From the NCBI GenBank assembly GCA_900315675.1, contig OMZY01000011.1:1-64000 (forward strand): DNA of 64,000 nt, read 5' to 3'. Numbering within the stretch: the stretch's first letter is position 1; the number at the start of each line of letters is the position of its first letter. The notes below the pieces were generated by a model. The model did no database searches. It saw only the letters and a list, made by a program, of their open reading frames with translations, and was not told the origin of the DNA. Position numbers and translations under genes: made by a program. This document shows positions 42,274 through 43,586 of the stretch, piece by piece. The stretch is from an uncultured Eubacteriales bacterium. Its GTDB lineage: Bacteria > Bacillota > Clostridia > Christensenellales > Aristaeellaceae.

Positions 42274-43365
42274 TTACCAGAAGGAGAAAAACCATCCGGC
42301 CAGCGGTGAAAGAACGATCATGATGATTGAGAAAGTGAAACTCTCAATGGAGATGAGCGTAGCCCGCTGTTCGGAAGGGAACATGTCCTGCAGCCGCGTG
42401 TTGGTGCGTACCTGCAGGGCGTCGTCCGCCAGCGCGGCAATAAAGCCGCCGGCGGTCATCAGCAGGGGAATCCCGCTGTGTTCCAGACCGATACCGGCCA
42501 GTACAAGGATTCCGGTGACGGCAAAGATTGTCCGGTAGCTTTTCTTTTTGAAACGGAGAATGATCCGGGCACCGATAATGCCGCCCAGCTGCATCACAAA
42601 CAGTGCCGGGCCGAGCCACTGATCCGGAATACCGGCAGCGGGCAGTTTGGCCTGCAGGAAGAACAGCAGGAGGATATCCGCGGCACCGATCAGGGAATTG
42701 GTCATCATCAGCAGGAATGCCCGGGTTTCCTTTTTCAGAAAGCGCAGGCTGTCCCGGAAACAGTTCAGCAGGGCATTCGGGGCGGAAACGGAAGCGGAGC
42801 GGGCGTTGTCCGACCGGACTTCCTCCAGGGAAAACAGGAGGAAAAGCTGGATCAGGCAGGTTATGATTCCTGTGGCATAGGCAATCCGGTAGCCGATAAT
42901 CAGGGCAAATCCCGCGCACAGGGTGGAAATGCCGCTGCACAGCCGGTAGATAATCAGCTGAGTGGATTCGTACCGGTCGTAGACCTGCTCCTGCCCGGCT
43001 GATTTGAGTGAATCATAGGCGAGGGCTTCGCCGGAACCGGAGGCAAAACTGTCACAGACCGCGTAGAGCGCGATGGAGAGACAGACCAGGGCCAGGTTGT
43101 TGGAAAGGATCATGACAGCTCCGGCCAGGATGTGAATCAGGGTGCTGATGATCAGCATCTTTTTTCTTCCGTATACATCCGCCAGGGTGCCGGAGGGAAT
43201 CTCCATCAGCAGACTGGCGGCGTGGTAGGCGGTTTCCGCCAGGCCGATCTCCACCAGGGAGAAGCCGCGGGAGGCCAGGATAGCGACCCAGGCGCCGGTC
43301 AGGGACAGATTGCCGAGTATGGATGAAGCATAAAGCTTGCGAATCTGATTTTTGATTTTGGACAT
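42274..43365 (-). CDS. MFS exporter
   Basis: A 363-residue transporter of the major facilitator superfamily with 10-12 hydrophobic segments. The signature between helices 2 and 3, GTLADVYGRKKML, is intact and resembles drug-efflux members. Slightly short but with both halves present (second half from FLLMMTNSLIGAADILL). The 5' region strongly suggests antibiotic-type induction: a short leader ORF, an internal terminator and a hairpin covering AAGGAG lie upstream. The likely role is export of a toxic compound; identity of the compound is unknown. Confidence 0.88.
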   Translation of the reverse strand: MSKIKNQIRKLYASSILGNLSLTGAWVAILASRGFSLVEIGLAETAYHAASLLMEIPSGTLADVYGRKKMLIISTLIHILAGAVMILSNNLALVCLSIALYAVCDSFASGSGEALAYDSLKSAGQEQVYDRYESTQLIIYRLCSGISTLCAGFALIIGYRIAYATGIITCLIQLFLLFSLEEVRSDNARSASVSAPNALLNCFRDSLRFLKKETRAFLLMMTNSLIGAADILLLFFLQAKLPAAGIPDQWLGPALFVMQLGGIIGARIILRFKKKSYRTIFAVTGILVLAGIGLEHSGIPLLMTAGGFIAALADDALQVRTNTRLQDMFPSEQRATLISIESFTFSIIMIVLSPLAGWFFSFW

Positions 43366-43373
43366 AAAAATAA

Positions 43374-43404
43374 CTCCTTAACGTTGATTTTACTGGTTAA
43401 GGAG
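43374..43404 (-). promoter_or_regulatory. Hairpin sequestering the MFS ribosome-binding site
   Basis: Read on the minus strand, CTCCTTAAC (43404-43396) pairs perfectly with GTTAAGGAG (43382-43374) across a 13-nt loop. The 3' arm contains the whole AAGGAG site, 8 bases before the ATG at 43365, so translation would be blocked when the stem forms. Confidence 0.85.
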
Positions 43405-43453
43405 AACATACACCAGAGAACCGGTTATGAAGTGACGGATGTCAGCGCCGGCT

Positions 43454-43486
43454 AAAAAAAGGTATACTTCCCCCTTACAGGGAAGT
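43454..43486 (-). terminator. Attenuator terminator overlapping the leader ORF
   Basis: Minus strand: ACTTCCC (43486-43480) pairs with GGGAAGT (43472-43466), then five bases and a run of seven T (43460-43454). The 5' arm is made of the last codons of the leader ORF, so a ribosome near its end would prevent the hairpin. Confidence 0.75.
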
Positions 43487-43531
43487 CATTACGCCTTTAA
43501 ACAGCAGCACACCGATCATCTTCCAGAGCAT
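43475..43531 (-). CDS. Leader peptide of the MFS exporter gene
   Basis: An 18-codon ORF, MLWKMIGVLLFKGVMTSL, with a strong ribosome-binding site AAAGGAGG 9 bases before its ATG. It lies between a promoter and two hairpins upstream of the exporter. Size, position and overlap with a terminator are those of leader peptides that sense antibiotic-stalled ribosomes (as in erm, cat and several efflux genes). A short hydrophobic membrane peptide is an alternative, but the overlap with the terminator favours a leader. Confidence 0.75.
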   Translation of the reverse strand: MLWKMIGVLLFKGVMTSL

Positions 43532-43557
43532 GAAACCGATCCTCCTTTTATGATATA

Positions 43558-43586
43558 AGCCTACCCCCGCGGGCGGGTTTTGTCAA
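43558..43586 (-). promoter_or_regulatory. Promoter of the leader-MFS unit
   Basis: Minus strand TTGACA (43586-43581), a GC-rich 17-nt spacer and TAGGCT (43563-43558). Transcription would start only a few bases before the leader ribosome-binding site. Confidence 0.6.

Follow-up and report, generated by a model that had tools for sequence, protein, structure and literature searches.

Organisation of the locus

A gene for an MFS exporter-like protein of 363 amino acids (42274-43365, minus strand; Pfam MFS_1, E 6.7e-21) lies in the window, a stretch of 64,000 nucleotides from the genome of an uncultured Eubacteriales bacterium (contig OMZY01000011.1), and is preceded by a compact leader region on the same strand. 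The elements that the initial annotation had read from the sequence (a promoter, an 18-codon leader ORF with a ribosome-binding site, a terminator-like hairpin followed by seven T residues, and a 9-bp hairpin over the Shine-Dalgarno (SD) sequence of the exporter) are all present at the positions that it gave. The promoter (43558-43586) consists of a -35 box TTGACA (43586-43581), a spacer of 17 nt and a weak -10 box TAGGCT (43563-43558), and was recognised from the sequence and from relatives. The leader SD sequence AAGGAGG is found at 43541-43547, where the majority of aligned relatives have AGAGG, and the leader ORF MLWKMIGVLLFKGVMTSL extends over 43475-43531.

Four segments of the leader RNA, all on the minus strand, are involved in pairing. 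Segment 1 (43480-43498) comprises the final leader codons (AAAGG...ACTTCCC) and forms the 5′ arm of the terminator-like hairpin, the stem of which spans 43486-43466. Segment 2, the core, has the sequence GGGGGAAGUAUACC (43461-43474); it is both the 3′ arm of this hairpin (helix 1:2) and the alternative partner of segment 3 (helix 2:3), and the T7 run follows directly 3′ of the hairpin (43454-43460). Segment 3, GGUGUAUGUUCUCC (43401-43414), shares a CUCC motif with the anti-SD arm CUCCUUAAC (43396-43404), which in turn pairs with segment 4, the SD arm GUUAAGGAG (43374-43382), in helix 3:4. The exporter SD, AAGGAG (43379-43374), is contained in segment 4. The pairing of the core with segment 3 had been missed in the initial annotation. 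As a whole, the region from 43340 to 43560 folds at -65.9 kcal/mol (z -4.6), a value matched by none of 200 shuffles. At the start of the window, positions 1-172 contain a tRNA gene and a 5S rRNA gene truncated at the window edge.

Distribution of the leader and its exporter

Relatives of the exporter were collected from the genus of the window and from GTDB, where the best 80 of 123 loci were taken. The gene start is included in 89 of these 93 loci; the remaining four are two partial loci (L089 and L092) and two without a close orthologue (L090 and L093). By pattern, the leader was detected at 80 of the 89 loci, and inspection by eye added four more (L024, L052, L064 and L065). Three loci (L018, L057 and L067) are unusable for the leader count because their contig ends within 182 nt upstream. 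The leader therefore precedes the orthologous MFS exporter at 84 of 86 usable loci, in Clostridia and in Treponema. At the other two, L004 and L070, leader and core are absent and the SD hairpin remains; both sit in clades whose other members have the leader, and its absence reflects either natural loss or an assembly fault. The exporter proteins are identical within each of the pairs L001/L082, L002/L085 and L049/L084, so that each pair is probably one genome counted from two collections.

Exporter matches are present in 10 of 45 genomes of the window's genus, with nine full-length close copies in eight genomes. Two of these nine belong to the window's own genome, where the second copy (L091; G000 contig C12, 8545-9639) is 78% identical and has a leader of its own. 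A covariance model (R1) built solely from leader and core, and so without segment 3, gave nine matches in eight of the 45 genomes, each adjoining one of the nine close copies. Among 40 genomes of the studied loci, R1 found one real copy per genome, before the MFS gene, in 38, the exceptions being the genomes of L004 and L070; a 39th match (E 0.03) lay on the strand opposite to a genuine one. R1 also matched 13 of 200 genomes from the family to which the genome of L046 (G337) belongs, 12 of them new. The next gene in 11 of these 12 encodes a member of the same MFS family, at 34-59% identity, and the leader is thus kept before exporter relatives down to 34% protein identity. At the twelfth, L228, leader and SD hairpin are present and the MFS gene breaks off within a few codons of its start. 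A search of 200 genomes of that family with the exporter itself (E ≤1e-30) returned 17 genomes, 12 of which have an R1 match; the other five are the genome of L004, two with a second leader type, that of L245, where a W-K leader was seen by eye, and that of L247, where the exporter locus has no recognisable leader. Across 398 genomes of the phylum, searched under strict filters and with 10 candidates scored per genome among the matches listed, R1 identified only the window's own genome.

Neighbouring genes were compared at 88 loci. The exporter groups all of them, and the largest other non-overlapping gene group spans 14 of the 88, which does not amount to a conserved neighbourhood.

A sister MFS subfamily (L244/L252, L246/L250 and L259) has a different conserved leader, MNGLGY(T/I)P(V/I)CSSSSxSKT, which is followed by GGGAUUACUGCG and a run of T residues, with a complementary strand visible by eye further downstream. 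At L246 the SD arm GGGAUUAC repeats the core. Of the 10 matches to a pattern for this sister type in 200 genomes, only 3 are such leaders.

Searches outside the exporter loci

A first guess, that the leader is shared with other resistance genes of the tet(W)/tet(O) type, was rejected after searches of plasmids and genomes. The leader of one relative gave seven short matches in plasmids at E 3 and none in E. coli genomes at E up to 1 (blastn), and the leader peptide had no match in plasmids (tblastn). Carriage of the switch by phages was likewise rejected. The 14-nt core occurs in 79 IMG/VR stretches, none of which has the leader context by pattern, and its five matches in 297 genomes of the order also come without that context. 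Five records of a phage collection matched, among them two human faecal contigs (L178 and L179) with the leader and an MFS relative, which are unannotated and probably bacterial DNA. Relatives of the exporter itself were found neither in IMG/VR, nor in plasmids at E up to 1e-20, nor among solved structures at E up to 0.001. Rfam returned nothing above the gathering threshold at the leader in the window and nothing in nine loci at E up to 5. Strings of the leader peptide were found in none of the papers searched, and the papers listed for tet leaders yielded nothing on this one.

Promoter and translation of the leader

With three of six consensus letters, the -10 box of the leader promoter is poor, and the promoter is absent from a pattern scan of the window, the rule of which requires four of six letters per hexamer. 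At the same position L001 has TAAGCT and L002 TATGCT. A promoter-like pair of boxes is present within 75 nt upstream of 58 of 79 orthologous leaders, compared with 4.2% of letter shuffles.

The leader peptides share the consensus M-x-W-K-x-x-N-(L/V)-(Q/L)-L-x-K-G. Codon 3 is TGG (Trp) in all 44 Bacillota-type representatives and codons 7-10 are likewise conserved, whereas the 15 Treponema-type leaders start M-W-K. Over codons 2-11 of the 44 representatives, in counts that ignore relatedness, 46 of the single-step codon differences in the leader frame are synonymous and 79 are not, a synonymous fraction of 0.37 where 0.18 is expected. This approximately twofold excess is confined to the leader frame: the other two frames have synonymous fractions of 0.15 and 0.17 and contain 51 and 13 stops, as against none in 440 codons of the leader frame. 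Because of the in-frame synonymous excess and the lack of stops, the leader ORF is very likely translated. The codon table of the 44 representatives has a single conserved Trp codon and lacks any run of codons for the same amino acid. The position of the leader stop varies among the 80 loci; it precedes the core in 32, falls inside it in four and lies past it in 44.

At Treponema loci (L005, L015, L020 and others), the -10 box by eye seems to lie a few nucleotides before ATG TGG, and no SD sequence was seen. The Treponema leader may thus be a leaderless ORF at the 5′ end of the transcript.

Helices 1:2 and 3:4

The helices were assessed in an alignment (A2) of 40 of the 52 representatives that were left from 80 loci after removal of near copies; eight Treponema-type sequences and L019, L063, L071 and L080 had been dropped before counting. 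The 9-bp hairpin around the exporter SD (43404-43396/43382-43374) folds at -10.2 kcal/mol (z -4.5) in the window, as well as which only one of 200 shuffles folds. In the 40 Bacillota sequences helix 3:4, with the exporter SD inside it, is 97.8% paired and has no double changes; it is too invariant to covary in this set. Other pair types appear at stem positions 7-9 once distant loci are included, among which L179, L220, L222 and L229 fall below the 3:4 stem score used.

Taken alone, the terminator-like hairpin of the window is not striking, since its -15.5 kcal/mol (z -1.5) is equalled by 14 of 200 shuffles. A terminator pattern scan nevertheless calls the hairpin with its T7 run as one of two sites in the window, where 0.3 would be expected. 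In A2, 94.2% of the cells of helix 1:2 are paired, and its covariation score of 0.225 is reached by none of 500 shuffles, slid registers scoring 0.035-0.112. Double changes affect 4 of 13 pairs (as many in 6 of 500 shuffles) and six cells (1 of 500); they prove little, because slid registers have up to four double-changed pairs and 12 such cells. RNAalifold on a leader-only alignment returned an uninformative helix of four pairs. The longest T run measures 4-7 in the 80 loci, with at least five T residues in 61 and four in 19, and three T residues of the U-run are invariant in alignments A1 and A2.

Given that the leader ORF extends past the core at 44 loci, a ribosome translating without hindrance would of itself disrupt the terminator there. 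Strong termination may be confined to some lineages, that of the window included: the short U-run at 19 of 80 loci points to a general translational layer and a possibly lineage-limited transcriptional one. Since the SD hairpin is near-universal in the Bacillota set and the U-run variable, the translational layer appears to be the constant one of the two.

The core and the alternative helix 2:3

The core reads GGGGAUAGUGCGCC in most Bacillota relatives. It is conserved wherever the leader stops, whether before, inside or past it, which indicates that the constraint acts on the RNA. In the window the core (43474-43461) can pair with the strand that contains the anti-SD sequence (43414-43401) at 13 of 14 positions, a duplex matched by one of 200 shuffles of the core. 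Across the 40 Bacillota sequences helix 2:3 is 92.3% paired. Seven of its 14 pairs have changed on both sides, a number that none of 500 shuffles reaches, and 18 cells are double-changed where shuffles have 4.4 and, again, none of 500 reaches 18. Slid registers are 37.5-65.9% paired and contain 0-10 double-changed cells, the best being register -2 with five double-changed pairs and 10 such cells. Compensating changes can be followed from UAUACC/GGUGUA in the window to UAUGCC/GGCAUA in L002 and GUAUAC/GUAUAC in L041.

Examined locus by locus, the 2:3 duplex is matched by at most 4 of 200 core shuffles at 58 of 65 Bacillota-type loci; L008, L040, L060, L063, L080, L087 and L088 miss this level. 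Treponema support is weak, as one of 15 loci reaches the same level and five are not beyond chance, with 10 at up to 27 of 200 shuffles. In 13 further loci, made up of the 12 new R1 loci minus L230 plus L178 and L179, the duplex is matched by at most 6 of 500 shuffles at 10 and is weaker at L221 (25), L229 (69) and L179 (134). Eleven of the 13 were found with the model that lacks segment 3. Not all of the 13 are independent, since the leader of L219 is almost identical to that of L066, and leader DNA had served to find L178 and L179. When the 2:3 region of the window is folded alone, minus the first G residues of the core, it reaches only z -1.6. The initial annotation had named conserved leader codons with covarying stems near orthologues as the pattern to look for; this is what the Bacillota forms display, the terminator stem being the less clear part.

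The core of several relatives resembles their SD arm (AAGGGGAUA and AAGGAGAU, respectively) and may therefore serve to lure the anti-SD strand away as a decoy.

Folding and the proposed switch

RNA up to segment 3 was folded with ViennaRNA for 40 Bacillota loci (4 of 44 were skipped), with the ribosome represented as a block on the leader. Without a block, the median pairing of the core is 0.76 with segment 1 and 0.03 with segment 3; with a ribosome at codon 6, these values become 0.00 and 0.84. The corresponding values in the window are 0.86 and 0.00 without a ribosome, 0.12 and 0.67 with one at codon 6, and 0.01 and 0.79 with one at codon 10. During transcription the switch is thus predicted to be near-binary over the 40 Bacillota loci. 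In the full-length RNA at equilibrium, opening of the exporter SD is predicted to be no more than partial and to need a ribosome near codons 13-15. Mean SD openness reaches 0.28-0.37 at these positions (0.47-0.65 in the window) and 0.01-0.04 at the others tried (0.16 at codon 12 in the window). As helix 3:4 otherwise wins at equilibrium, the order of synthesis or binding of the 30S subunit would have to matter. A coarser folding gave the same picture in 40 Bacillota loci (7 of 52 loci were skipped); in five Treponema loci it gave an SD openness of 0.39 unblocked and 0.56 with a block at codon 14, and no clear switch.

The leader's own SD (43541-43547) also becomes less accessible in the full-length fold, its unpaired probability dropping from 0.86 to 0.30 in the window and from 0.50 to 0.35 on average over 64 loci. 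Such occlusion, as modelled, could limit repeated translation of the leader.

We consider it likely that a cis-acting, ribosome-sensing RNA switch controls the MFS exporter. Comparison of the relatives argues for its putative parts, namely the leader peptide, helices 1:2 and 3:4 and the competing helix 2:3. The two layers of attenuation proposed in the initial annotation are upheld in a refined form, as one switch whose core would serve both as 3′ arm of the putative terminator and as partner of the anti-SD strand. In the absence of stress, the leader would be translated and released, or RNA polymerase would outrun the ribosome, and helix 1:2 would form; transcription would then tend to end at the U-run, with helix 3:4 silencing whatever RNA is read through. 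A ribosome stalled inside the leader would cover segment 1 and prevent formation of 1:2. The cause of the stall would most likely be a small molecule that acts on the ribosome and that the exporter can remove. Without helix 1:2, RNA polymerase would read on, and the core would pair with segment 3 immediately upon its synthesis, when segment 4 has yet to be made; this pairing would weaken helix 3:4 and expose the exporter SD.

Alternative explanations

One alternative is a purely translational attenuator of the ermC type, in which helix 1:2 does no more than sequester the core and the U-run forms the A-U foot of this stem, with no working terminator. The near-universal SD hairpin fits such a device, as do the variable U-run, which pairs with the conserved AAAGG, and the passage of translation through the 1:2 hairpin at 44 of 80 loci. 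Set against these are the clean T7 run behind the window's hairpin, which the scan calls as a terminator, and the three U-run residues invariant in A1 and A2; we regard this explanation as less likely than not. Less probable again is a leader that senses not a drug but an amino acid or general translation stress, for instance Trp limitation at codon 3. The TGG found there in 44 of 44 Bacillota-type representatives would suit such a sensor, and a block at codon 4 in RNA up to segment 3 gives a median 2:3 pairing of 0.81. The same block leaves helix 1:2 in place in the window (0.76), however, and a single conserved Trp codon without a run of codons for a regulating amino acid argues against amino-acid attenuation; moreover, codons 7-10 are conserved too, and the target is an exporter rather than a biosynthetic gene.

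A riboswitch, with the core binding a molecule directly and the ORF incidental, could explain why the core sequence is conserved even where the leader stop precedes it or the frame differs, and a new class is conceivable where Rfam has no match. Its two pairing partners largely account for the conservation of the core, however, the ORF has its in-frame synonymous excess, and the consensus fold consists of the 1:2 and 3:4 hairpins only, all of which makes a riboswitch very improbable. That a chance terminator and hairpin happen to precede an ordinary gene might be suggested by the z of -1.5 for the 1:2 hairpin alone, but is contradicted by the conservation of the leader and by the 2:3 covariation (0 of 500 shuffles), and can be practically dismissed.

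Relationship to known attenuators

In the translation attenuators of ermC and cat genes, helices 1:2 and 3:4 alternate with helix 2:3, and the SD is hidden in 3:4. The present switch has the same topology, and comparison likewise supports a translated leader, a hidden SD and, in Bacillota-type loci, a mutually exclusive 2:3 helix; it differs in the U-run behind 1:2, in its leader peptide and in its MFS target.

Transcription and translation attenuation are combined, under one stalled ribosome, in the Bacillus subtilis genes vmlR and tlrB (PMC9226507, PMC6851288). Like the window, the vmlR leader has a uORF and an SD-sequestering hairpin, and its intrinsic terminator has a putative counterpart in the window; the induced fold proposed by its authors is incompatible with terminator and hairpin alike (PMC9226507). 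The vmlR system has a separate anti-antiterminator hairpin, an ABC-F target and another leader peptide, whereas here the 3′ arm of the putative terminator would itself attack the SD hairpin. Shared with tlrB (yxjB) are a leader peptide and an SD-sequestering structure, and the tlrB terminator again has a putative counterpart here; in tlrB, terminator and SD-sequestering structure are both relieved by one stalled ribosome. In contrast, no overlapping antiterminator was identified in tlrB, which encodes an rRNA methylase; there, tylosin causes stalling at an RYR motif at the leader C terminus, and NusG pausing is needed (PMC6851288). In E. coli, the topAI uORF (toiL) responds to ribosome-targeting antibiotics of several classes and links translation to a termination that is Rho-dependent and occurs inside the gene, with a toxin-antitoxin target (PMC12121999).

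The initial annotation had considered that this might be an undescribed induction system. Stacked attenuation as such is already published for vmlR and tlrB, and for this reason we rank the system as a version of known attenuation rather than as a new class; what is new is a widespread version with its own leader, which has no Rfam match and whose peptide strings are in none of the papers searched.

Identity and history of the exporter

Against NCBIfam, all listed matches of the exporter lie far below the curated cut-offs (TIGR00900, 57 of 319.6 bits), and the same holds for the tetracycline families TetA(P) (34 of 750 bits) and Tet(40) (22.6 of 800). By analogy alone, a small molecule that acts on the ribosome is our leading guess for the inducer.

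In a protein tree of 101 rows with a midpoint root, the 16 Treponema genes all group in a single clade nested within Bacillota (support 99/97), and a second clade (100/99) unites the 12 genes from the genus of the window; long branches near the root make the deeper joins unsure. The nested position of the Treponema clade suggests one transfer into Treponema, in which gene and leader appear to have moved together.

Biological significance

In its fullest form, our reading is tentative and falls a little short of an even call: a new, widespread family of leader-peptide switches would have a conserved nascent-peptide sensor (M-x-W-K...L-x-L-x-K-G) that occurs only before one MFS family, a single SD-mimicking strand would be both terminator arm and anti-SD decoy, and switch and exporter would have been transferred as a unit between Bacillota and Treponema. 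It would sense a translation inhibitor, perhaps a natural product of the gut or rumen, for which no induced gene is known so far. If this is true, many gut and rumen Clostridia and Treponema would possess an exporter that is induced through its leader, an inbuilt sensor of a ribosome-targeting compound. The use of one strand to couple termination to release of the ribosome-binding site would be a compact design in which the order of the two layers is testable, and the conserved leader peptide would offer a direct handle for finding the inducing compound.
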